The notes under the pieces were generated by a model. The model worked only from the letters and a program-made list of their open reading frames with translations, was not told the origin of the DNA and searched no databases. This document shows positions 37,517-50,888 of a stretch of 64,000 bases of DNA, piece after piece (position 1 is the first letter of the stretch; each line of letters opens with the position of its first letter). The translations under genes and the position numbers were made by a program. Origin of the DNA: Rhodospirillaceae bacterium (GTDB lineage Bacteria; Pseudomonadota; Alphaproteobacteria; Rhodospirillales; Casp-alpha2). Location of the stretch: NCBI GenBank assembly GCA_018665815.1, contig JABJBP010000137.1, positions 1-64,000 of the forward strand, given 5' to 3'.

Positions 37517-38355
37517 TGGCTGAAAACGCATGGTATCTGATACAGTCCGGTGCCGACGAACAACACGGCCCTGTTTCCGATGCCGACCTATTGGTCTGGA
37601 TGGAAGGCGGCCATGTGCAGCCTGACTATCTTTTGTGGCGCGACGGGATGTCGGGATGGGAGCCGGCCGCCGTCTTTCTTGATCTTTTCGCCGAAACAAC
37701 TTCCGATCGCGATGGGCCGGAAAACCCGATGGCTCCAGAAGCCTCCGCCGAACCCGCGCCGGCCGATCCGCAAATCAGCGATGATGGCGCGCATGCATTG
37801 GGGAAACTCGCAGCCGAAACTGAAGCGCCGTCCTTCGGGCCGTTCTTGGGGCGCAAACTCAACATTTCCGAACCCGACCTTGCCGACTTCACGGGGACCA
37901 ATCCGGAACCATTTCTGGCTTACCGTCAAAAATTGATCAACAACGCCGGCGGTTTCGCCGTTTCGTTCACCTGGCCGGCGTTATTCATTCCTGCGGCTTG
38001 GCTTGCTTATCGCCGGCTATATGGATGGGCAGCGATATATTTTGTCTGGATGATCGCCCAAGCCGTCCAATTGGAAGTAGCCTCGCCATTCACCTGGCAT
38101 CTCATGGGCGTGACGGCGCTGTTTCATCTGGCGCTTTGTATATTTGGAAAGGGGCTGATCATCCTGTCCGCCGATAAGGCTGCGGAATTAGCAAACGGTG
38201 CGAAACTTCATGCCGTCGACCGGCAGACATATCTGCAGGCCAATGGCGGGGTCTCGAAGCTCAGTTTATGGATTGTGGTTGTGGCTTACATCGTGATGGC
38301 GTTGGTTCAATTCGCCATTGCCTACCCGCCGGCCCGTAACTTCTTGCAGTTTTAG
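37516..38355 (+). CDS. GYF_2-domain membrane protein with DUF2628-like region
   Basis: 279 residues starting at ATG 37516, overlapping the flavoprotein stop by one base (TAATG). The N-terminal 60 residues form a GYF_2/DUF4339 domain ([45 protein letters not shown]; core GPVSDADLL and [10 protein letters not shown]). An acidic Pro/Ala linker follows, then a membrane region with about four helices and the aromatic-rich [15 protein letters not shown], resembling DUF2628. No function is established; GYF_2 domains usually bind Pro-rich peptides. Confidence 0.72.
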
Positions 38356-39299
38356 CCGTCAATCGCGTCGCGGAAATAGGCAACAGTTTTGGTTAAACCT
38401 TCGGCCAAAGCGATGCCTGGTTGCCAATCAAGTTTGTCCTTGGCCAGCGTAATATCAGGGCAGCGCTGCATGGGATCGTCTTCGGGCAGCCGCTTGAAGG
38501 TGAGTTCCGATTTCGAGCCGGTTTCCGCGATGACCTTTTCGGCCAACTCTTTAATTGTAAATTCTCCGGGGTTGCCTAAGTTCATGGGTCCGGTAACGCC
38601 GTCGGGCGAATTCATCAATCTGATCAGGCCGTCGACCAAATCATCGACATAACAGAACGACCGCGTTTGTAGCCCGTCGCCATAAACGGTGATCGGCTGG
38701 CCGTTGAGCGCTTGGACGATAAAGTTGGAAACGACCCGGCCGTCATTGGGATGCATATTCGGGCCGTAGGTATTGAAGATCCGCGCAACTTTTATATCCA
38801 GGCCGTGCTGGCGCTTGTAATCAAAGAACAAGGTCTCGGCACAGCGCTTGCCCTCGTCGTAGCATGACCGAGGACCGATGGGATTGACGTTGCCCGTATA
38901 GGTTTCGGGCTGGGGGTGGACATGTGGGTCACCGTAAACCTCACTGGTTGAGGCCTGCAGGATGCGCGCTTCGGTCCGCTTCGCCAGGCCCAACATGTTG
39001 ATGGCGCCGTGCACACTGGTCTTCGTCGTTTGCACTGGATCGTATTGATAGTGAACCGGTGAAGCCGGGCAGGCGAGGTTGTAGATTTGGTCGACCTCGA
39101 CATAAAGCGGGAAGGTCACATCGTGGCGCATCATCTCAAATCGGGGCTCGCGCAGAAGATGGGCGATGTTGTCCTTGGTGCCGGTGAAGAAATTATCGAC
39201 ACAGAGCACATCGTTGCCTTCGGCGACGAGACGGGTGCAAAGATGGGTGCCGATGAAGCCGGCACCGCCGGTGATCAGGATGCGTTTGCGGTCTGGCAT
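38352..39299 (-). CDS. UDP-glucuronate decarboxylase (UDP-xylose synthase)
   Basis: 315-residue extended SDR enzyme. NAD loop [15 protein letters not shown], catalytic Ser/Tyr/Lys in [10 protein letters not shown] and SCYDEGKR, and [20 protein letters not shown]. The [18 protein letters not shown] segment matches UXS-type enzymes, which convert UDP-glucuronate to UDP-xylose through a 4-keto intermediate. A bifunctional ArnA or UDP-apiose synthase is less likely at this length. Converges on the GYF_2 gene with a four-base tail overlap. Confidence 0.88.
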
Positions 39300-39384: not shown

Positions 39385-40146
39385 TCAGGTTTGCAGGAAC
39401 CGGCGTTCGTCGCCTTCCAGGACGATGCAGGTCAGACAACCGCTTCGATAAGCAAACGTGTCGAGACAAATGCGGTTGGTGCGGATAACCGGCTCGAAAT
39501 CCGGAGTGTGGCCGTGGATCACAAATTTTCCAAAATCATCATTGGCGTGCAGAAAGGGGCCACGAATCCATATCAGATCTTCGTCATCCTGTTGGTCATA
39601 GGGGATGCCGGGCCTGACTCCGGCATGAACGAACATGTAGTCGCCTTCAACGTGGCTCAGCTTCAGGCCTTGAAAAAAATTCAAATGTGACGACGGTAGA
39701 ATTTCGATCAGCGAAGTGCGAATTTCCGCAAGATTGCCGGCGGTCCCGAATTCTCCCGTGCTTTCGATGCCGTAGCTGGCGAGAGTGGCCATACCGCCAT
39801 TGAACACCCAGTTGTCACCCGACCCCCCGGTTTCGACAAATTTTAGCAGAAAATCTTCGTGATTACCTTTCAGGTGGGTGATTTCAAAACCATCCAAGGG
39901 TGCATCAATCAACGTCTCGACGACTTCGAAGGATTGCCGACCGCGATCAATGTAGTCGCCCATGTAGACCAATACATGGCGTTCCGTCGGCCGCGCCGCC
40001 GCGTCATGGGCGATTTGATCATGCAGCATTTTCAGCAGGTCATAGCGACCGTGAATATCGCCAATAGCATAGACGCGCGTTCCCGTCGGCACGGCCGGTG
40101 GGAAAGGCGGTGGATCGATGGCGATAGCATGTGCGGATGTGTTCAT
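39385..40146 (-). CDS. Metallophosphoesterase (serine/threonine phosphatase or diadenosine tetraphosphatase-like)
   Basis: 253-residue calcineurin-like phosphatase. Motifs in order: YAIGDIHGRYDLL (GDxHG), VYMGDYIDRGRQS (GDxxDRG), HLKGNHEDFLL (GNHE), and late VHAGVRPG and IHGHTPDFEP (HGH). These supply the dinuclear metal site. Close relatives are the PPP-type bacterial phosphatases and ApaH/PrpE. The protein or nucleotide substrate cannot be read off. No signal peptide; a Pro-rich N-terminus precedes the fold. Confidence 0.85.
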   Translation of the reverse strand: MNTSAHAIAIDPPPFPPAVPTGTRVYAIGDIHGRYDLLKMLHDQIAHDAAARPTERHVLVYMGDYIDRGRQSFEVVETLIDAPLDGFEITHLKGNHEDFLLKFVETGGSGDNWVFNGGMATLASYGIESTGEFGTAGNLAEIRTSLIEILPSSHLNFFQGLKLSHVEGDYMFVHAGVRPGIPYDQQDDEDLIWIRGPFLHANDDFGKFVIHGHTPDFEPVIRTNRICLDTFAYRSGCLTCIVLEGDERRFLQT

Positions 40147-40306: not shown

Positions 40307-41596
40307 ATGGCGGATTGGGGCGCGGCCGCTGGTGGTGCGGGAGACCTCAACAATACTGAGGAATCGCTGCTTCTCGACCGTTTGAATCGGATCGAGCTGA
40401 ACTCGGCTGGATATTTTGTCGTCCACATGAACCTGTCCGGACTTCGGCCCAACAATAAACATAGCCATTTTGTCGAAATCGCCGCTCGGACCTTCGATAT
40501 CATTGTCGACAACAATGATGCGACGTTGTTTTCCATGGCCAACAAGGACTTGGCGTTGCTGTGCCGCAACCTGGATGTCGACGACGTCGACAATGCGGTT
40601 GAAAAAGTCCGCGCCCTATTCAGCGAAGATCCGTTGACCGAATTAGACGACAGCGGTTTCGAGGATAATTTTTCGACCTGGTATGATTTGTCGAACCCCG
40701 AAGATTTCGCCGCTTTTTTTGCCGTGGTCACGGACCTAGCGGTGGAGGCCGAGCACCGGCTTGCGGAAGAGGCCGACCGCCAGGACAAGGAGCAGCAAAA
40801 AGGCCAACCGTTAGAGCCGGAGAACCTTTCCGAGATCAATAAGAAGATTCAAAGCATGCGGGTTGCCGACATGATCAAGCGTCAGGCGTGCTTGCAGGTG
40901 AGCCCGGGCGGCGGCGGTGAATTGGTGTTTTTCGAGTTATTTATTGGAATGACCGAGATCAAGGAGCGTGTCGCGCCGGACATCAATCTGTTCGCCAGCC
41001 CGTGGCTGTTCCAGTATTTGACCGAAACACTCGACAGACGCCTATTGGCGGTTCTCGTCGAGGAGGATTTTGACGAGGTTACCGAACCGTTGAGTATCAA
41101 CCTGAACATATCAACGGTATTATCGCGGGAGTTTCAGAACCTCCACCGCGCCGTCAACGGCAACATGTCGAAGGTTGTCGTTGAGTTCCAGATTATCGAC
41201 ATTTTCGCCGATATGAAGAGTTACACCTATGCCCGTGATTCCTTGCAAGAGCGCGGATACCGGGTGGTTGTAGATGGGCTTAACCCCTTGTCTCTTCAGT
41301 ATTTTGAACCCGCTGATTTGAAGTCTGATTTCATCAAGATTTCCTGGGGGCCGGAGTTTACCGGTGACGAGGAAGAAAGCCGCCTTGCGGAAATTAAGGA
41401 GGTTGTCGACAAAGCTGGTAAGGAAACGATGATTTTGGCCCGGGTCGATTCGGAAAAAGCGGTAAAATGGGGCCTGAATATTGGAATTAGCCGGTTCCAA
41501 GGTTTCTTCATCGACAAATTGGTGCAGGTGATTGGCTGCGGTCGCGGCACGGCCAAACCTAAGCCGGCGGCCGCCAAAGCTGCAGGCGGAGCATAG
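40307..41596 (+). CDS. Degenerate GGDEF/EAL-like protein, copy 1
   Basis: 429 residues, no membrane segment or signal peptide. The N-terminal half (residues about 20-150) looks like an eroded GGDEF fold (FVVHMNLSGLRPNN, RTFDIIVD, LFSMANKDLALLCRNLD). The C-terminal half, from about residue 225, looks like an eroded EAL phosphodiesterase: INLNIS, VVEFQ, RGYRVVVDGLNPL in place of DDFGxG, FIKISW for the KxD position, and SRFQGFFIDKL in place of QGY. The EAL tripeptide, DD and second catalytic Glu are missing, so c-di-GMP hydrolysis is unlikely. The two halves are joined by a charged, Glu/Gln-rich helical linker (residues about 145-185). A paralogue follows three bases later. Confidence 0.7.
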   Translation: MADWGAAAGGAGDLNNTEESLLLDRLNRIELNSAGYFVVHMNLSGLRPNNKHSHFVEIAARTFDIIVDNNDATLFSMANKDLALLCRNLDVDDVDNAVEKVRALFSEDPLTELDDSGFEDNFSTWYDLSNPEDFAAFFAVVTDLAVEAEHRLAEEADRQDKEQQKGQPLEPENLSEINKKIQSMRVADMIKRQACLQVSPGGGGELVFFELFIGMTEIKERVAPDINLFASPWLFQYLTETLDRRLLAVLVEEDFDEVTEPLSINLNISTVLSREFQNLHRAVNGNMSKVVVEFQIIDIFADMKSYTYARDSLQERGYRVVVDGLNPLSLQYFEPADLKSDFIKISWGPEFTGDEEESRLAEIKEVVDKAGKETMILARVDSEKAVKWGLNIGISRFQGFFIDKLVQVIGCGRGTAKPKPAAAKAAGGA

Positions 41597-41599
41597 GTC

Positions 41600-42874
41600 A
41601 TGGCGGATTCCGGCGACGGTCAGAAACGCCTTCCTAGCCAGGAAAACTTGCTGCTCGATTACGTCCGGCGGCTGGAAAAACACAAAGCCGGCCGGAAAGT
41701 CGTGATCCTGCATCTCTCGGCACTGCGCCCGTTCAATCGCCGTGATCAACATATCCGCGCGGCCGCCAGTAATTTCGATCAATTGATATCGGATATGACC
41801 GGCCAGTTATTCACTCTGAAGAACGCCGACATTTATTTCATCTTCAAATCGGAAGCGTTGCCGCAGGTTGAAACCCTAGTCCAGAAAATTAAGTTTCTGT
41901 TCGACGATGACCCTCTGGTCGCCGAGGAAGACAAGCAAACACAATCCTTCGCCTCATGGTATGACGCCGACGACGATTTTCCGGCCATCCTCAATCTTGT
42001 GCAAAGCGTCGCCCAATCGGAACAGGAACGCCAAACGGCGGTCCGAGCCCGCATGGATGCACGGGCTGCACTAAAGGCCAAGCAGCAGCAGGGCGAGCCG
42101 CTGACACCGGAAGTGTTGGCCCGCGTTGAGACGGCATTGGTGCGGGCAGATCTTTCGAACTTGGTGCGCCGTCAATTTGTTTGCGAGGTCGATTCGAAGC
42201 TTGTGCCGACCCAAAGCTTCAGCAAATTGTTCGTTTCAATTCAAGACTTGCGCGAGACCTTGCAGCTGGGCGTCAATTTGGTGGCCAACCGTTGGCTGTT
42301 TCAACACCTAACCGAAACGCTTGACCGGCGGATGCTGTCGATGCTGACGAAAACCGACGGCATATCGATTTCCGGCGAAATCAGTTTCAACATCAATGTG
42401 GCGACGATCCTGTCGAAGGAATTCCAGATTTTTGATGACAATATTGCGGCGTCCCGGCGCGGACAAATGATCATCGAATTGCAGAAAGAAGATATTTTCT
42501 CGAACCTTTCGTCTTTTATTTTTGCCCGCGAGTTTGTCCAAGACAAAGGCTATCGTGTCTGTCTCGACGGCATGACGTTGGATACGGTGACGATGATTAA
42601 ACGCGATCGTCTGGGTGTCGATATGACCAAGCTGGTGTGGAGTCCTGACCTGGTTGACGGCGGCGAGGAGGTACACAAACTGCTTAAATCTATGGTCAAA
42701 CACGAAGGCGAGGAAAAATTCATCCTGATCCGTTGCGACAACCGCGAGGCGATTGATTTCGGAAAATCCGTCGGCATCAACCGGTTCCAAGGCCGTTTTG
42801 TTGAAAACCTCATCGCCGAGGATGGACGGCGGCGCGGATTACTTCGCCTGAAACGCCGGATTGAGCGGAACTAA
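41600..42874 (+). CDS. Degenerate GGDEF/EAL-like protein, copy 2
   Basis: 424 residues, start ATG 41600 just after copy 1, so the two are surely cotranscribed. It has the same plan: KVVILHLSALRPFNRRDQH and SNFDQLISD in the eroded GGDEF half; a Gln/Ala-rich linker; ISFNINVATILSKEFQ, MIIELQKEDIF, KGYRVCLDGMTLD, MTKLVWSPDL, NRFQGRFVENL in the eroded EAL half. Side by side, copy 1 and copy 2 share motif order and spacing (WLFQYLTETLDRRLLAVL versus WLFQHLTETLDRRMLSML) but little identity elsewhere, indicating an old duplication. Catalytic residues are absent here too. The pair could act as a heterodimeric sensor or scaffold (inference). Confidence 0.7.
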   Translation: MADSGDGQKRLPSQENLLLDYVRRLEKHKAGRKVVILHLSALRPFNRRDQHIRAAASNFDQLISDMTGQLFTLKNADIYFIFKSEALPQVETLVQKIKFLFDDDPLVAEEDKQTQSFASWYDADDDFPAILNLVQSVAQSEQERQTAVRARMDARAALKAKQQQGEPLTPEVLARVETALVRADLSNLVRRQFVCEVDSKLVPTQSFSKLFVSIQDLRETLQLGVNLVANRWLFQHLTETLDRRMLSMLTKTDGISISGEISFNINVATILSKEFQIFDDNIAASRRGQMIIELQKEDIFSNLSSFIFAREFVQDKGYRVCLDGMTLDTVTMIKRDRLGVDMTKLVWSPDLVDGGEEVHKLLKSMVKHEGEEKFILIRCDNREAIDFGKSVGINRFQGRFVENLIAEDGRRRGLLRLKRRIERN

Positions 42875-42886
42875 GCTCTTTTTCCC

Positions 42887-43924
42887 TTAGTGGGTGGCGG
42901 CGTCTTTGTCGCTAACGCCGGCCTCATCGAAAGTCGCCATGCCGCTATGACAGGCGGCGGCGGACTTGAGCAGACTGACGGCAAGCACCGCGCCGGATGC
43001 TTCACCGAGGCGCATGTTCATATCCAATAGCGGCGGCATGCCCAGCAAATCAAGAAGCCGGACATGCCCTGGTTCGGCTGATACGTGTGCCGCCATGCAG
43101 TGATCCAGGGCGCTCGGATTGGCTGCCGCCAAGGACGCCGCCGCCGCGCCGACGACGTAGCCGTCCAGAAGCACCGGTACCCGGTGCATGCGCGCCGCGA
43201 CAATGGCGCCCGCCATGGCCGCCAGTTCCCGACCGCCGAGATGCCTTAGTGCTTGTAATCCATCCGCCAAATGCACCGCATGTTGGCGAACCGCATCGCC
43301 GACGGCATCCATCTTCATACTGAAGGCGTCGCCGGCGACACCGGTGCCCGGACCGGTCCAATCCTTCGCGTCGCCGCCATAAAGCCCCATGGCCAGCGCC
43401 GCGGCGCTGGTTGTGTTGCCAATGCCCATTTCACCGACACACAGCAGATCAGCGCTTTCAGGGACCGCCTCCATGCCGCGCCGAACAGCGGCCATGAAAT
43501 CGGCCTCGCTCATCGCAGGGCTTTCAGTGAAATCCGCCGTCGGCGAATCCAGATCAATGGCAATGACCTGCAAGTCCGCGCCCACGGCCTTGCAGAGCTG
43601 GTTCACCGCAGCGCCACCTGCCTCGAAATTGGCGACCATTTGCGCCGTCACTTCCGGTGGGTAGGCGGAAACCCCTTTGGCGACGACGCCATGGTTGCCG
43701 GCGAATACCCTGACCGCGATGTTCTCGACCTCAGGCGGATGCTGCCCCTGCCAGGCTGCCAGCCAGTGGGCAATGACCTCAAGACGGCCAAGTGAGCCCG
43801 GCGGTTTGGTCAATTGCGGCTCGCGCGCTTCGGCCGCGCCAAAGGCGTCCGCGTCGGGCCCCGGCAGCTTGCCCAGCAACTGATGAAAGGTTTTGATGTT
43901 TTTCGGAGTCTTGAATCCACTCAT
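42887..43924 (-). CDS. cobT: Nicotinate-nucleotide-dimethylbenzimidazole phosphoribosyltransferase CobT
   Basis: About 345 residues. The enzyme transfers ribose phosphate from nicotinate mononucleotide to dimethylbenzimidazole, making alpha-ribazole phosphate for the lower loop of cobalamin. Conserved KPPGSLGRLE, FAGNHGVVAKGVSAYPPEVTAQM, CVGEMGIGNTTSAAALA, GGRELAAMAGAI, and late LDLLGMPPLLDMNMRLGEASGAVLA (catalytic Glu near its end). ATG 43924 gives MSGFKTPKNIKTF, a normal N-terminus; the frame runs on to 43996. Divergent from cobS. Confidence 0.93.
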   Translation of the reverse strand: MSGFKTPKNIKTFHQLLGKLPGPDADAFGAAEAREPQLTKPPGSLGRLEVIAHWLAAWQGQHPPEVENIAVRVFAGNHGVVAKGVSAYPPEVTAQMVANFEAGGAAVNQLCKAVGADLQVIAIDLDSPTADFTESPAMSEADFMAAVRRGMEAVPESADLLCVGEMGIGNTTSAAALAMGLYGGDAKDWTGPGTGVAGDAFSMKMDAVGDAVRQHAVHLADGLQALRHLGGRELAAMAGAIVAARMHRVPVLLDGYVVGAAAASLAAANPSALDHCMAAHVSAEPGHVRLLDLLGMPPLLDMNMRLGEASGAVLAVSLLKSAAACHSGMATFDEAGVSDKDAATH

Positions 43925-44093
43925 ACAGAGAATTTCGCAGCCCCTGGCGATCTTGTCCATGGGCTCGTTCAAAGCCGTGCTCAAAGCTGGGCTCATGGAC
44001 CCATTCGTGGCGCCAGTGACGGTGTCAGCGACTTTTCTTTACCGTGCAATCGATTAACCTGTCGGCTTTCCGCAGATCAATGGTTTCGGAGAG

Positions 44094-44891
44094 ATGTCCG
44101 TGGACGACCAAGACCGCCAGAAATTACTCGATCGATTGTTCTACGGCTGGGGCCGTGATGTCGCAGTCGCCGGCGCCTTTTTGACGCGCTTGCCGTTTCG
44201 GCCAGGCGGGGATGTTGCTATGTCGGACCTGGGACCGGCCAGTCGGGCGTTTCCGCTGATAGGTTTGTTAGTCGGCGTTTTCGCCGGCGGTGCGCTGTGG
44301 CTTGGTGCCAAGGCCGACCTGCATCCGTTGGCTTGCGGTTTTATCGGCCTTACCGTCAGCGCCTGGATTACCGGTGCGCTGCACGAGGACGGATTGGCTG
44401 ATTTTGTTGATGGTATTGGCGCCCGGACACGAGAGCGGCGCCTTGAAATCATGCGCGATTCCCACATCGGGACGTTCGGCGTGCTGGCGCTGGTTTTCAG
44501 TGTCGGCGCCAAAGCGGCGCTGTTGGCGGGCTTCTTGGGCCCCGGATTGGCGGCGACGGCATTGATTGCCGCCGTTACCATTTCCCGGGCACCCATCGCG
44601 GTAATTATGTGGCGTCAGGCGCCGGCCCGAAAAGACGGTCTGGGCCGTGATGCCGGGCAGCCGACGAGTGCCGATGCCACCATTGCGATGGCATTGGCCG
44701 CGCTTTGTGCCGTTTCGTTGTTGGGTTGGGCGGTCGGCGGTCTTGCTGTGATGATGGCATTATGTGCCGCTGGCATGGTTGCGTGGCTTGCCCGCAAGCG
44801 CCTCGGCGGCTATACGGGCGACGTTCTTGGCGCCGCGCAGCAGGCTGCTGAGATCGCCGTTCTCTTGGCCGCCGGAGCTTACGCCATATGA
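44094..44891 (+). CDS. cobS: Adenosylcobinamide-GDP ribazoletransferase (cobalamin synthase)
   Basis: 265-residue membrane enzyme joining alpha-ribazole (phosphate) to adenosylcobinamide-GDP. Family signatures: FLTRLPF near the N-terminus, FPLIGLLVG, the acidic ALHEDGLADFVDGIG, and MRDSHIGTFGVLAL; several hydrophobic helices and C-terminal GYTGDVLGA. GTG start at 44094 (a later start would lose the conserved N-terminus). Its stop overlaps the next start by four bases. Confidence 0.94.
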   Translation: MSVDDQDRQKLLDRLFYGWGRDVAVAGAFLTRLPFRPGGDVAMSDLGPASRAFPLIGLLVGVFAGGALWLGAKADLHPLACGFIGLTVSAWITGALHEDGLADFVDGIGARTRERRLEIMRDSHIGTFGVLALVFSVGAKAALLAGFLGPGLAATALIAAVTISRAPIAVIMWRQAPARKDGLGRDAGQPTSADATIAMALAALCAVSLLGWAVGGLAVMMALCAAGMVAWLARKRLGGYTGDVLGAAQQAAEIAVLLAAGAYAI

Positions 44892-45541
44892 CTACTGTCA
44901 CCAGTTGGTGGTTCGTCCGTCACGCTCCCGTCATTGGGGTCGAAGGCAAGATTTATGGCTCCGACGATGTCGAATGCGATGTTTCCGACACCGCGTCATT
45001 TAAAGTCCTGGCCGGCAAACTGCCGTCTGAAAGTGTCTGGATGACGTCGCATCTGACGCGCGCAAAATTGACTGCACGTTCCATCGCCGAGGCCGGCCTG
45101 AAAACACCTGACCCCGTCATTGAAGCCGATTTGGGCGAACAGGACTTCGGTCGATGGCAGGGGTCAAGTTGGCAGGAGATGGAGGACGGTGATCCGGAAG
45201 GTTATGCCAAGTTCTGGGAAACACCGGCCTCCAGTGCGCCGCCCGGCGGCGAAAGTTTCGCCGACTTGATCGCGCGCACCGGCGCCGTCATGGACCGGTA
45301 TACGGAAAGTCATGCGGGCCGCGATATCGTTGCCGTTTGCCATGGCGGCACCATTCGCGCGGCCATTGCTCACGCGCTGCGCTTGAGCCCGGAAATGGGC
45401 ATGTCGTTTAGTGTCGGCACCCTGTCCATGACCCGCCTCGAACACGTCGAGGGCGGACTGCTCAGAGGCCAGGGCGGCGTTTGGCGCATCGTGGGTATCA
45501 ATCAGCCGTCCAGCCCGCACGAAGACGGAGTGATTAGATGA
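44888..45541 (+). CDS. Histidine phosphatase family protein, probable alpha-ribazole phosphatase
   Basis: 217-residue phosphoglycerate-mutase-type phosphatase. Catalytic RH is in WFVRHAPVIG; second His in VCHGGTIRAAIAHAL; EQDFGRWQGSSWQEM supplies the acid. Between cobS and cobU with four-base overlaps on both sides, so its likely job is to dephosphorylate alpha-ribazole 5'-phosphate or the final cobalamin phosphate (CobC-like). I leave the symbol blank because cobC is used for two different genes. Confidence 0.8.
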   Translation: MTTVTSWWFVRHAPVIGVEGKIYGSDDVECDVSDTASFKVLAGKLPSESVWMTSHLTRAKLTARSIAEAGLKTPDPVIEADLGEQDFGRWQGSSWQEMEDGDPEGYAKFWETPASSAPPGGESFADLIARTGAVMDRYTESHAGRDIVAVCHGGTIRAAIAHALRLSPEMGMSFSVGTLSMTRLEHVEGGLLRGQGGVWRIVGINQPSSPHEDGVIR

Positions 45542-46071
45542 CCGCCGCTTTGCCCTTGGTCACCTTGGTGCTGGGCGGCGCGCGGTCCGGCAAAAGCCGT
45601 TTTGCCGAGGAAATGGTCGAGGCCCAAGGAAACGGCCTCTATCTGGCGACCGCCCAGGCTTTCGATGAAGAAATGACAGAGCGTATCGCCAAGCATCGCA
45701 ATCGGCGTGGTGACAACTGGGAAACCATCGAGGAAATCCGCGAGATCGTGGCTGTGCTGGAACGCGAGGCGCGTCCGGACCGGCCGATCCTGGTTGACTG
45801 CCTCACGCTGTGGCTATCGAATTTATTGTTCAACGACTTGCACGCCGGCGAGGAAATTCAAAAGCTCGCTGATCTATTGCAATCGGGCACTTTACGGGGC
45901 CCGGTGGTTTTCGTATCAAACGAAACGGGGCTTGGCGTGGTGCCTGACAACCGCCTATCCCGAGTATTCGTAGACGCCCAGGGCGACCTCAATCAACTGG
46001 TCGCCCGACTCGCCAATCGCGTCGTCATGGTGACGGCCGGCTTGCCCAATGTATTAAAGGACCAGACATGA
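45538..46071 (+). CDS. cobU: Adenosylcobinamide kinase/guanylyltransferase CobU (CobP)
   Basis: 177-residue RecA-fold enzyme that phosphorylates adenosylcobinamide and attaches GMP. P-loop LVLGGARSGKSRFAEEM; LYLATAQAFDEEMTERIAKHRNRRGDNWET with the catalytic His; ILVDCLTLWLSNLL; VFVSNETGLGVVPDNRLSRVFVD. All match CobU/CobP. Overlaps its upstream and downstream neighbours by four bases each. Confidence 0.94.
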   Translation: MTAALPLVTLVLGGARSGKSRFAEEMVEAQGNGLYLATAQAFDEEMTERIAKHRNRRGDNWETIEEIREIVAVLEREARPDRPILVDCLTLWLSNLLFNDLHAGEEIQKLADLLQSGTLRGPVVFVSNETGLGVVPDNRLSRVFVDAQGDLNQLVARLANRVVMVTAGLPNVLKDQT

Positions 46072-47096
46072 AAATTCCCGCAACCGTCATTACCGGCTTT
46101 CTCGGCGCCGGCAAGACCACGCTGATCCGCCATATCATGGCCAACAATGCTGGCAAGCGGATTGCTTTGGTGATTAATGAATTTGGCGATCTTGGGATCG
46201 ATCGTGAACTGGTCACCGGTTGCGGCATTGAGGGTTGCGAGGACGAGAACGTCGTGGAGTTGGCGAACGGTTGCATCTGCTGCACCGTCGCCGATGATTT
46301 CCTGCCGACCATCGAAGCGCTTTTGAACCGGCCCGAGCCGCCCGATCATATTGTTATTGAAACGTCAGGCCTGGCCCTGCCGAAACCCCTGGTGAAAGCG
46401 TTCAATTGGCCGGAAGTCCGATCAAGGGTCACCGTCGATGGGGTCGTCACCGTGGTTGATGCACCGGCGGTCGCCGCCGGCCAGTTTGCCGATGATCCGA
46501 TTGCTGTCCAGGCGCAACGCGAAGCCGACGAAATGCTCGACCATGACAATCCCTTGGAAGAAGTGTTCGAAGACCAATTGCTGTGCGCGGATATGGTGCT
46601 GTTGAACAAGACTGATCTGTTGGATGCGGCCGCCCTGGATGCGGTCCGTGCCGAGGTCAAAGGTGGTGTCGACGTGCAAGTCAAACTGGTTGATACGGTG
46701 CAGGGCGTCATCGATACACGGGTGTTGTTGGGCATCGGTGCCGGGGTTGAGGATGTCATTGAAGGCCGTTGGTCGCATCACGACGCGGAAGACGACCACG
46801 ACCACGATGACTTCGAAAGCTTCACGGTTAGTCTCGGTGATATCGATGATCCGGCCGAATTGGAAGCGCGTATTCAGACCGCGGCGGTCGATCATGACAT
46901 TTTGCGCGTCAAAGGTTTCATTCATGTGCCCGGTAAGGACATGCGCCACGTCGTCCAGGCCGTCGGCGCCCGCGTGCAGCGTTATTACGACCGCCCCTGG
47001 GCGGATGGCGAGGCGCGGACGACGGAACTGGTCGTCATCGGTCAGACCGGCCTCGACCACGCAGCCATTACCAGCGCACTTGGCGCCGAAGGCTAA
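46068..47096 (+). CDS. cobW: CobW GTPase, metal-insertion partner
   Basis: 342-residue G3E-family GTPase. Walker A TGFLGAGKTTLIRH; CxCC metal site in NGCICCTV; VIETSGLALP and LLNKTDLLD for switch and guanine binding. A His/Asp-rich stretch near residues 238-248 (HHDAEDDHDHDD) may bind cobalt or zinc. CobW is thought to deliver cobalt to the chelatase; cobN begins one base after the stop, which fits. It has the normal CobW length. Confidence 0.92.
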   Translation: MKIPATVITGFLGAGKTTLIRHIMANNAGKRIALVINEFGDLGIDRELVTGCGIEGCEDENVVELANGCICCTVADDFLPTIEALLNRPEPPDHIVIETSGLALPKPLVKAFNWPEVRSRVTVDGVVTVVDAPAVAAGQFADDPIAVQAQREADEMLDHDNPLEEVFEDQLLCADMVLLNKTDLLDAAALDAVRAEVKGGVDVQVKLVDTVQGVIDTRVLLGIGAGVEDVIEGRWSHHDAEDDHDHDDFESFTVSLGDIDDPAELEARIQTAAVDHDILRVKGFIHVPGKDMRHVVQAVGARVQRYYDRPWADGEARTTELVVIGQTGLDHAAITSALGAEG

Positions 47097-50000
47097 ATGC
47101 ACCTGCTTGCCGCCCAGCCTGGCGGGGTGTCCGATGGCTCGGAAGCCGTCGATCTTGGCCAGACGCCGGGTGACATTGTCGTCATCTCGGCGGCGGATAC
47201 GGAATTGTCTCTGATTGCGCAAGCGCGGGCGGAACATCCGGCAGACGGTTTCCCCAGCCTGCGTCTGGCCAATCTCATGCATCTTGGCCACAACATGTCT
47301 GTCGATCTGTATGTTGAGAATGTCATTGCCGATGCCAAGCTGGTGGTCTTGCGGCTATTGGGCGGGCAGGGGTATTGGCCCTACGGGTGTGACCAGGTTG
47401 CCCAGGTCTGCGCCGCCAACAAAATTCCTGTCGCTTTCCTGCCGGGCGATGACCAACCGGACGCAGAACTTGCCGATCTTTCGACCTTGGATGCCGACGC
47501 CCAACACCGGCTCTGGCAGTACCTTGTCCATGGCGGGCCGGAAAACGCCCTCGATTTCGTCAATTACGCTGCCGATCTGATCGGTTATGACTGTGAATGG
47601 CAAGAACCTCGGCCGCTGGTCCGCGCCGGACTGCATTGGCCGGGCGCGGCGAACACGGACTTGGCCCGGGTGCAATCGAATTGGGTCGAGGGGCGACCCG
47701 TCGCGGCCCTGGTCTTCTACCGGGCACTGGTTCAATCGGGGAATCTTTGGGCCGTGGAAGCGGTCATCGAAGGATTGGCGACGGCAGGCCTCAACCCATT
47801 GCCAGTATTTGTCGCCAGTCTCAAGGACCCGATCGCCGCGGCGACGCTGGAAACCCTACTGGCAGACGCACCGCCTGCGGTGATCATCAACGCCACCGGC
47901 TTTGCCGTATCGGCGCCCGGCCAAGATCGAACACGAGGCCCCTTCGATTGCGGCGGCGATGATGGCGGCCCGGTCGTTCTGCAAATGGTGTTTTCAGGGG
48001 GCAACGAAGAGGATTGGCGCACCGGCACGCGCGGCCTCGGCGCGCGTGATATATCCATGAACGTGGCGCTGCCGGAAGTCGATGGCCGGGTGATGAGCCG
48101 CGCGGTCTCATTTAAAGGCAGCGTGCGCCGTGACCCGCTGACGGAAACCGACATTGTCCGCTATGAGCCCGTGCCCGACCGCATTGCCTTTGTCTGCCAA
48201 TTGGCCCGCGCCTGGGCGGAGTTGCGCCGGACGCCGGCCCAGGACCGCCGCGTCGCTCTGGTGTTGGCCAATTATCCGAACCGCGACGGAAGGCTGGGGA
48301 ATGGCGTCGGCTTGGACACGCCGGCGGGTGCTATTGAATTACTGAATGCCATGGCCACCGCCGGCTACCAGGTCAACGACATACCGGCTGACGGCGACGC
48401 CCTGATCAATCACCTGATGGCTGGCCCGACCAACGATTTTGCCGTCCTGGACCGCCGCGAGATCCGCGAAACGCTGTCCATGGCGGACTATCAGATTTTC
48501 TTCGGCGGTCTGCCAACATCGGTTCAGGACGCAGTCCGTGAACGCTGGGGCGCGCCGGAGACCGACCCGTTTTATCGTCCAGGTGAGGTCGATTGTGGGC
48601 ATTTCGCGATCTCGGCGTTCCGGTTGGGTAATGTCGCGGTCTGCCTGCAGCCGGCGCGCGGCTACAACATTGATCCGAAAGAAACCTATCACGACCCGGA
48701 TTTGGTGCCGCCGCACAACTACTTGGCGGTTCATGCCTGGATGCGGGGCGAGTTCCGCGCCCATGCCGCCATTCATTTTGGCAAACACGGAAATTTGGAA
48801 TGGTTGCCCGGCAAGGCGCTGGCGTTGTCCGAAGAATGTTTCCCGGAAGCCGCCCTTGGGCCCTTGCCGAATATTTATCCGTTTATTGTCAACGATCCCG
48901 GCGAAGGCACACAGGCGAAGCGCCGGACCAGCGCCGTCATCGTTGATCACCTGACGCCGCCGCTGACCCGCGCCGAAAGCTATGGGCCGCTGAAGGATCT
49001 GGAGCAGCTGGTCGATGAGTATTACGAGGCCTCGGGCGTTGACCCCCGGCGTCTCAAGGTTCTCACGCGCGACATTTTGGAGCTCTGCCACACCACCGGG
49101 TTGGATGCCGATTGCGGTGTTGCCGAGAACGATGATGACGATGCTGCACTCGGCAAGCTCGACAATTATTTATGCGAACTGAAGGAAATGCAGATCCGGG
49201 ACGGTTTGCATATATTCGGCAAAACCCCTGATGGTCGCTTGTTGACGGATTTGCTGGTGGCGTTGGTCCGCGTGCCGAGAGGCTCGGGCGAAGCCGGCGA
49301 CGCGTCGCTGCACCGGGCGATGGCCGATGATCTGGGCCTTGAGTTTGATCCGCTTGATTGCGATATGGGGGCGGCGTGGACCGGCGCCAAGCCCGATGTG
49401 TTGGCAACCTTCGGCGAAGGTCCTTGGCGCAGTGTCGGCGATGCCGTCGAGCGGTTGGAGGAACTCGCCTCGGCAACCGTCTCCGGTGATATGGCATTGG
49501 CCGATGCGTTACCTGGTGCGCGGTCAGCCAGCGCCGCCGTTCTTGATCAGTTGCAGAACCAGATTGGACCGGCAGTGGAATCTTCCGGCGCCGCCGAGAT
49601 CAGTGGCGCATTGACCGCCTTGTCCGGCAGTTTCTTGGAGCCCGGCACATCGGGCGCGCCGACACGCGGCCGGCCGGATGTCTTGCCGACGGGGCGGAAT
49701 TTTTATTCCGTTGATACCCGTACCGTACCGACACCGGCGGCCTGGCAACTGGGTTGGAAGTCGGCGACCTTATTGGTCGAGCGCCACATGCAAGATCACG
49801 GTGCTTGGCCGACAACCTTGGCCCTTAGCGCCTGGGGCACATCGAATATGCGGACCGGCGGCGATGACATCGCCCAGGCGCTCGCCTTGATGGGTGTGCA
49901 ACCGACCTGGGATACGGCCAGCCGCCGGGTCAATGGGTTCGAGGTCATGCCGGCCAGCGTGCTCGGGCGGCCCCGGGTTGATGTGACCTTGCGGATTTCG

Positions 50001-50888
50001 GGGTTCTTCCGCGACGCGTTTCCGGCGCTAATTGATCTGTTTGATTCCGCCGCGCGCGCCGTCCAGGCCCTGGATGAACCTGATGAAACTAATCCCACCG
50101 CGGCGCGTGTGCGCGATGAAACAGCAGTTTTGGTGGCTGGCGGCTTGGATAAGACCGAAGCTGCAAAGCGCGCCGGGTTCCGGGTGTTCGGATCCATGCC
50201 CGGCGCCTATGGCGCCGGCCTGCAGGCGTTGATTGATGAACGCGGCTGGGAAACAGATGCGGACCTGGCTCGCGCCTATGTCGCGTGGGGAGGCTATGCT
50301 TATGGTTTGGGCGCCGAGGGCGCGGCTGAGCACGGGCTGTTTGAAACGCGGCTGAAGTCCGTCGAAGCGGTGGTCCACAACCAGGACAATCGCGAACATG
50401 ACCTTTTGGATTCTGACGATTACTACCAGTTCGAGGGCGGCATGACCGCCGCAGTCCGCCATCTTTCCGGCACACAACCCGAGGTCTATCACATGGATCA
50501 CGCCCGCCCGGAAACGCCGCGCGCGCGGACCTTGGCGGAAGAAGTCGCCCGCGTAGTGCGGGCTCGCGTCGTCAATCCGAAATGGATCGAAGGCGTGATG
50601 CGCCACGGCTACAAGGGTGCCTTTGAAATGGCGGCGACAGTGGATTACCTGTTTGCCTTCCAGGCCACGGCACGCTGCGTCGCCGATCATCATTTCGATG
50701 CTGTCTTTGAGGCTTATTTGGACGACGACAAGGTCCGCGAATTTCTGACTGATCACAATCCGGCGGCGCTCAAGGAAATGACGGAACGCTTGTTGGAAGC
50801 GCAGGACCGTGGCCTGTGGTCCCCCCGGCGCAACGATACGCGGGCCGCTCTTGAGGCCTTGGCGGACCCGGGCCGGGCTGCTTCGTGA
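47097..50888 (+). CDS. cobN: Cobaltochelatase subunit CobN
   Basis: 1263-residue large subunit of the ATP-dependent cobalt chelatase, which inserts cobalt into hydrogenobyrinic acid a,c-diamide. Recognisable CobN/BchH elements: LGGQGYWPYGCDQVAQVC early; LANYPNRDGRLGNGVGLDTP; AVHAWMRGEFRAHAAIHFGKHGNLEWLPGKALALSEECFPE; NDPGEGTQAKRRTSAVIVDHLTPP; and DDYYQFEGGMTAAVRHLSG near the C-terminus. Partner ATPase subunits (the Pseudomonas-style cobS/cobT chelatase genes) are not in the window. The next gene overlaps by four bases. Confidence 0.95.
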   Translation: MHLLAAQPGGVSDGSEAVDLGQTPGDIVVISAADTELSLIAQARAEHPADGFPSLRLANLMHLGHNMSVDLYVENVIADAKLVVLRLLGGQGYWPYGCDQVAQVCAANKIPVAFLPGDDQPDAELADLSTLDADAQHRLWQYLVHGGPENALDFVNYAADLIGYDCEWQEPRPLVRAGLHWPGAANTDLARVQSNWVEGRPVAALVFYRALVQSGNLWAVEAVIEGLATAGLNPLPVFVASLKDPIAAATLETLLADAPPAVIINATGFAVSAPGQDRTRGPFDCGGDDGGPVVLQMVFSGGNEEDWRTGTRGLGARDISMNVALPEVDGRVMSRAVSFKGSVRRDPLTETDIVRYEPVPDRIAFVCQLARAWAELRRTPAQDRRVALVLANYPNRDGRLGNGVGLDTPAGAIELLNAMATAGYQVNDIPADGDALINHLMAGPTNDFAVLDRREIRETLSMADYQIFFGGLPTSVQDAVRERWGAPETDPFYRPGEVDCGHFAISAFRLGNVAVCLQPARGYNIDPKETYHDPDLVPPHNYLAVHAWMRGEFRAHAAIHFGKHGNLEWLPGKALALSEECFPEAALGPLPNIYPFIVNDPGEGTQAKRRTSAVIVDHLTPPLTRAESYGPLKDLEQLVDEYYEASGVDPRRLKVLTRDILELCHTTGLDADCGVAENDDDDAALGKLDNYLCELKEMQIRDGLHIFGKTPDGRLLTDLLVALVRVPRGSGEAGDASLHRAMADDLGLEFDPLDCDMGAAWTGAKPDVLATFGEGPWRSVGDAVERLEELASATVSGDMALADALPGARSASAAVLDQLQNQIGPAVESSGAAEISGALTALSGSFLEPGTSGAPTRGRPDVLPTGRNFYSVDTRTVPTPAAWQLGWKSATLLVERHMQDHGAWPTTLALSAWGTSNMRTGGDDIAQALALMGVQPTWDTASRRVNGFEVMPASVLGRPRVDVTLRISGFFRDAFPALIDLFDSAARAVQALDEPDETNPTAARVRDETAVLVAGGLDKTEAAKRAGFRVFGSMPGAYGAGLQALIDERGWETDADLARAYVAWGGYAYGLGAEGAAEHGLFETRLKSVEAVVHNQDNREHDLLDSDDYYQFEGGMTAAVRHLSGTQPEVYHMDHARPETPRARTLAEEVARVVRARVVNPKWIEGVMRHGYKGAFEMAATVDYLFAFQATARCVADHHFDAVFEAYLDDDKVREFLTDHNPAALKEMTERLLEAQDRGLWSPRRNDTRAALEALADPGRAAS

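Follow-up and report, generated by a model that had tools for sequence, protein, structure and literature searches.

A co-inherited tandem pair of GGDEF-EAL-like proteins in Alphaproteobacteria with a putative one-metal EAL pocket

What could two adjacent GGDEF-EAL-like proteins do for a cell once the residues for catalysis are gone from both? The question is raised by a locus in the window, as we call the whole stretch of 64,000 nucleotides of Rhodospirillaceae bacterium DNA that was analyzed, where a first-pass annotation had pointed out two degenerate paralogues of 429 and 424 residues lying three bases apart. The ORF coordinates proved exact (Table 1). The two genes, here designated A and B, lie on the same strand, and 3 bp separate the stop of A from the start of B. 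Their products are paralogues, since they share 33% identity over 401 aa with an E-value of 4e-79 in BLASTP. The same genome also encodes two ordinary, intact EAL proteins.

Table 1. Features of the A-B locus, residues of protein A assigned to the EAL pocket, and same-genus loci lacking the pair (pLDDT, mean of the AlphaFold2 model)
Feature	Position	Strand	Description	Evidence
NAD-dependent epimerase/dehydratase (SDR)	38352..39299	-	conserved flanking gene	Pfam, synteny
Calcineurin-like phosphoesterase	39385..40146	-	253 aa; divergent from pair	Pfam, synteny
Protein A gene	40307..41596	+	429 aa	ORF call; AF2 pLDDT 89; Foldseek; A clade SH-aLRT 99
A E210	40934..40936	+	EAL-motif Glu counterpart, first metal site	second barrel strand; conservation
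A N265	41099..41101	+	NxS Asn counterpart, first metal site	100% in all groups; aligned with EAL structures
A E293	41183..41185	+	first metal site, third ligand	100% in all groups; aligned with EAL structures
A D323-G324	41273..41278	+	first DDFG Asp retained, second replaced by Gly	
A K344	41336..41338	+	catalytic-site Lys; W347 at K+3	K 100% in all groups
A A378-R379-V380-D381	41438..41449	+	family RxD motif replacing AExVE	
Protein B gene	41600..42874	+	424 aa	ORF call; AF2 pLDDT 86; Foldseek; B clade SH-aLRT 94
CobT-type phosphoribosyltransferase	42887..43996	-	conserved flank; marks empty site in pair-less genomes	
Pair-less same-genus locus L191	7784-9339			
Pair-less same-genus locus L192	10084-11711			
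Pair-less same-genus locus L193	8229-9429			

Protein A consists of a GGDEF-like domain (residues ~18 to 128), a long linker helix (131 to 164), and an EAL-like domain (~190 to 410), and B has the same architecture plus a C-terminal helix at residues 399 to 423. In Pfam, the EAL family (PF00563) was found in both C-terminal halves at 27.0 bits for A and 20.3 bits for B, and both E-values are significant although the scores fall below the curated cut-off of 31.3. GGDEF (PF00990) had no match in either protein at an E-value of ≤10. Among the homologues, 22 of 23 B-type or single-copy proteins and 25 of 26 A-type proteins matched EAL, and nothing else was matched consistently. No model describing the family was found when Pfam and NCBIfam were searched with A and B; the faint NCBIfam matches of B include CsrD.

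AlphaFold2 models were built from 60 A and 65 B homologues and reached mean pLDDT values of 89 and 86, respectively. When these were compared with the PDB by Foldseek, the top matches of both proteins were full-length and were all GGDEF-EAL tandem structures (E-values of 1e-13 to 1e-14), including MorA (4rnf; 3.9e-13 for A and 7.2e-14 for B), PA0861 (5xgb), LapD (6pwj and 6pwk), and PA0575. The alignments, 420 to 450 columns long, span both domains of these structures. Over the whole protein, TM-scores reach only about 0.4, as the two domains are placed differently relative to each other; against single EAL domains, many targets gave a Foldseek probability of 1.00, with TM-scores of 0.54 to 0.68 by target length. 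Searching PDB sequences with A itself or with an A profile returned no useful match; independently of the models, a profile built from B and its single-copy relatives found the EAL domains of RbdA/PA0861 (8pps and 5xgb; E-values of 0.001 to 0.004). The landmarks of the family also agree with those of the genome's two intact EAL proteins in a profile alignment, in which the profiles are too shallow to yield a score. The full-length structural matches and the profile match therefore support a GGDEF-EAL fold, with an EAL barrel in both proteins and a GGDEF-like N-terminal half, as had been suspected. In the N-terminal halves of the A-B family the GG[DE]EF motif is absent, and its position holds an N-x-D-[LIV] remnant in which only the Asp is invariant in A, B, and the single-copy homologues.

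We then turned to the EAL pocket, using an alignment that comprised 88 A, 92 B, 25 single-copy proteins (termed S), and 9 proteins of a third paralogue (termed C), 214 distinct homologues in all, and the genome's two intact EAL proteins. In known EAL enzymes, four residues form the first metal site, namely the Glu of EAL, the Asn of NxS, an acidic residue, and the first DDFG Asp; the second comprises the second DDFG Asp, the Asp two residues past the Lys, and a Glu; and catalysis as it is known involves two or more metals (PMC5301497). All four ligands of the first site are present in the family. The EAL Glu, reported as lost in the first-pass annotation, is in fact found in 100% of A, S, and C proteins and in 99% of B proteins; it lies in an F-x-E-x-F context in A and was assigned by its strand (A residues 204 to 213) and its conservation, because the MAFFT alignment with the intact EAL proteins is gapped there. 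The first DDFG Asp is likewise kept in 99 to 100% of homologues and is D323 in both A and B, and so, of the DDFG pair described as missing, only the second Asp has gone, giving way to Gly in most A (93%), B (96%), and S (84%) proteins and mostly to Ala in C. While A of the window carries all four ligands, its B is the exception for the EAL Glu: codon 209 reads AAA and encodes a Lys (K209, positions 42224-42226), and B of this species thus appears to lack one first-metal ligand as well. The Trp at K+3 is present in 100% of A, B, and C and in 88% of S, and the final Gln in 100% of the homologues.

The other half of the pocket is different. None of the second-metal-site ligands of active EAL phosphodiesterases is retained in A and B: the Asp at K+2 gives way to variable residues in the family (S346 in A and V346 in B), and the catalytic Glu, correctly noted as missing, is replaced by Ala, Cys, Ser, or Gly across the family, the window proteins having A378 and I377. 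The Arg of EALxR is Ser, Ala, or Gly throughout; in other EAL proteins this Arg is used in c-di-GMP binding, and it is kept in FimX (PMC3527489). Hence, the proposed order of EAL landmarks was mostly right and residues for catalysis have indeed been lost, but the EAL half shows no broad erosion, half of its pocket being invariant and the other half uniformly replaced. Judging from these residues, catalysis by the known EAL mechanism is very unlikely for A and B.

Both genes are under strong purifying selection. Compared with one same-genus homologue, dN was 0.14 for A and 0.12 for B at a dS of 1.8, close to saturation, in both cases, which gives a dN/dS of about 0.07 for either gene, and the frames are intact in dozens of genera; retention had been taken as a sign of function, and these values agree. 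Given the fixed replacements and the low dN/dS, we regard the pocket as a selected one-metal pocket, with the second half exchanged for fixed alternatives rather than decayed. In a maximum-likelihood tree of 69 proteins, A and B each formed one clade (SH-aLRT of 99 and 94) with corresponding internal branching, and A evolved faster than B. The separate clades with matching order indicate a single old duplication, after which the copies were inherited together.

The arrangement of the genes is equally stable, and the two-gene pair that the first-pass annotation proposed to look for in Rhodospirillales genomes is readily found. Neither of the outcomes named there as refuting, an unrelated predicted fold or the lack of a conserved pair in related genomes, came about. 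A match was present in 36 of the 41 nearest genomes, and A and B were adjacent in 33 of these 36 by a hand count from the table. Among 80 named loci of GTDB genomes, covering Magnetovibrio, Magnetospira, Terasakiella, and many Rhodospirillales, A lay immediately 5′ of B in all 75 whose contig reaches upstream, and in 82 of 82 distinct pairs A was directly 5′ of B on one strand, at a spacing, taken from the alignment, with a median of 11 bp and a maximum of 64 bp. Within the order, A or B almost never occurs alone where contigs permit judging; A-like and B-like genes were unlinked, on different contigs, in one genus only (G264, with L059 and L060; also G598 and G601). Beyond the order, three GTDB families (f55, f58, and f77) have the pair as well. 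A member of the family was present in 83 of 289 alphaproteobacterial genomes of a class sample, mostly as a single homologue outside the order, and all 15 matches in a phylum sample of 349 genomes fell within the same class. The pair is therefore ancient and has been co-inherited as a putative two-gene operon.

Several observations concern other members of the family. Deep-branching A homologues (L057, L058, and L061-L065) share a conserved four-Cys tail in the C-terminal 75 residues, with a zinc-knuckle-like spacing of about C-x5-C-x4-C-x14-C, which is missing from the A proteins of the window's clade. The third paralogue, family C, retains the same one-metal residue set. In the genome studied here, its gene (L169, 6001-7230, contig C51) runs out of frame past about residue 327, reflecting a frameshift in the gene or else an error in the assembly, and genome G020 carries three family-C paralogues in tandem (L170, 4754-8517). 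Inspection of the neighborhood of the third paralogue gave no hint of function.

The genes around the pair were then considered. The divergent phosphoesterase gene adjoins the pair in many but not all relatives and is absent together with A and B in four. Past the pair, the window has a cobalamin run (42887-50888: CobT, CobS, CobC-like phosphatase, CobU, CobW, and CobN) that is kept alongside in many genomes. Two relatives (G002 and G003) have two ABC-transporter genes between SDR and CobT in place of the phosphoesterase-A-B block, and in a third (G011) SDR and CobT are 228 bp apart with no gene between them. These sites, occupied or empty, indicate real absence of the pair rather than missing contigs in the three genomes. 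The pair can thus go as one unit while the cobalamin genes remain. We rejected a functional link between the pair and the cobalamin genes on this ground, as the latter stay in pair-less genomes, and flanking conservation in part reflects a stable chromosomal neighborhood. A fixed functional link to the phosphoesterase was considered as well, but the gene is absent beside the pair at several loci; we left it out of the definition of the system for that reason and because one deletion can take neighbors together.

In the class sample, FlhA was encoded by 77 of 83 family-positive versus 101 of 206 family-negative genomes, and PilZ by 60 of 83 versus 64 of 206. When each GTDB family was represented by a single genome, the odds ratios were 7.3 for FlhA and 5.5 for PilZ (p ~5e-5 each), statistics that are confounded by ancestry and genome size, which were not fully controlled. 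The five genomes among the nearest relatives that lack a match (G001, G002, G003, G011, and G013) have 0 PilZ and 1 to 2 GGDEF proteins, and four of the five keep FlhA, which indicates that the pair is dispensable for flagella. Most simply read, these data place the family in the c-di-GMP network that controls a motile or surface-bound way of life rather than in the flagellar machinery proper.

How do A and B compare with known systems? LapD sits in the membrane, has periplasmic and HAMP parts, and has lost the EAL Glu. A and B match the fold of this GGDEF-EAL receptor of Pseudomonas and Vibrio (6pwj, 6pwk, and 3pjw) over their full length and resemble it in having both domains in tandem and catalytically dead; unlike LapD, they look soluble, are paired, and have a whole first metal site, B of the window excepted. 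The periplasmic and HAMP domains of LapD had no Pfam match in A and B, whose 429 and 424 residues are filled by two folded domains, leaving no room for periplasmic, transmembrane, or HAMP parts. TipF is encoded by a single gene and has a different N-terminal part. By description, this alphaproteobacterial protein of Caulobacter, in which a degenerate EAL domain is tied to flagella and flagellar assembly (PMC10212136), resembles A and B in class, degeneracy, and flagellar link. FimX (REC-PAS-GGDEF-EAL; 3hv8, 4afy, and 7lkq), whose EAL domain is matched by those of A and B, is degenerate and binds nucleotide with the EAL Glu and Lys retained (PMC3527489); the Arg that follows EAL is present in FimX but missing from A and B, whereas DDFG, absent from FimX, persists in A and B as its first Asp. 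The REC and PAS domains of FimX had no Pfam match in A and B. The active enzymes MorA and PA0861/RbdA (4rnf, 5xgb, and 8pps), which gave the best full-length structural matches, are equipped with two metal sites and the catalytic Glu, unlike A and B. A and B fall outside PF00563 by the Pfam rule and lack the defining features of active EAL and GGDEF enzymes, of LapD, and of FimX. In their putative mode of working, we infer by analogy that they are most like degenerate GGDEF-EAL receptors.

Because half of the cutting machinery has been lost, half is unchanged, and the two proteins are inherited as a pair, their role is probably nucleotide sensing and not cleavage. Our tentative proposal, which may quite possibly hold, is that A and B serve the c-di-GMP/motility network as a pair of noncatalytic nucleotide receptors. 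The pocket would hold a metal and a phosphodiester nucleotide without hydrolysis, c-di-GMP and pGpG being the first candidates, and the GGDEF-like half and linker helix would pass its occupancy to a partner. A and B would act together, in the simplest form as a heterodimer made from one transcript, and their output would be a c-di-GMP-controlled motility or surface program, as for FimX, LapD, and TipF. The main doubt about this receptor proposal is the missing EALxR Arg: since this residue, a c-di-GMP contact in FimX and in active EAL domains, is replaced family-wide, the ligand may not be c-di-GMP.

Alternatively, A and B could form separate homodimers with divided roles, their adjacency serving co-expression, an account that concerns assembly and overlaps the other readings. 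The single homologues of other orders, the faster evolution of A, and the unlinked genes in one genus fit such an arrangement, but the tight A-B spacing and the near absence of one gene without the other within the order, where contigs allow judging, render it rather unlikely. It is also unlikely, somewhat more so, that the proteins are protein-binding adaptors without a nucleotide ligand, like YdiV or CsrD, with the pocket residues serving folding or a structural metal. This would suit the absent Arg, the faint CsrD match of B, and a GGDEF half that is short and lacks GGDEF; yet four metal ligands, the Lys, and the Gln are kept at nearly 100% in subfamilies that are otherwise dissimilar (33% identity between A and B), which exceeds what the fold needs.

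The same invariance, extending over Q, E, N, E, D, K, R-D, Q, and W in four subfamilies as in a working active site, would be expected of active enzymes with a different chemistry, namely a one-metal phosphodiesterase or phosphatase that uses the first metal site, the Lys, and RxD on another nucleotide such as pGpG or a linear dinucleotide, and the phosphoesterase gene is a divergent neighbor at many loci. We consider such enzymes improbable, since the second-metal ligands and the catalytic Glu are all lost, B of the window lacks even the EAL Glu, and known EAL catalysis needs two or more metals (PMC5301497). There is a similarly slim chance that the family is a one-metal EAL lineage with a pocket of its own (Q, E, N, E, D, K, W, RxD, and Q), in which an obligate A-B heterodimer would recognize or slowly turn over a nucleotide other than c-di-GMP and control motility in alphaproteobacteria. 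Decay of functionless duplicates, to which sub-cut-off Pfam scores, missing catalytic residues, and the dispensability of the pair in a few relatives might point, is refuted by the dN/dS of about 0.07 for both genes, the invariant pocket, and the intact frames in dozens of genera.

Degenerate GGDEF-EAL proteins are usually viewed as enzymes losing residues piecemeal, and to our knowledge they are known singly. We found no description of the A-B family in a literature search, and alphaproteobacterial c-di-GMP surveys based on Pfam (e.g., PMC9756655) can miss its members because many score near or below the cut-off. The family is new and unnamed, real, and widespread, and its function we infer. 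It constitutes a class-wide subfamily in which the pocket is split uniformly and completely, the first metal site being retained and the second gone, and in one large order this split pocket is fixed as a tandem pair. A and B thus offer a clean system for asking what a one-metal EAL pocket binds and whether pseudoenzyme heterodimers signal the c-di-GMP state to the flagellum.
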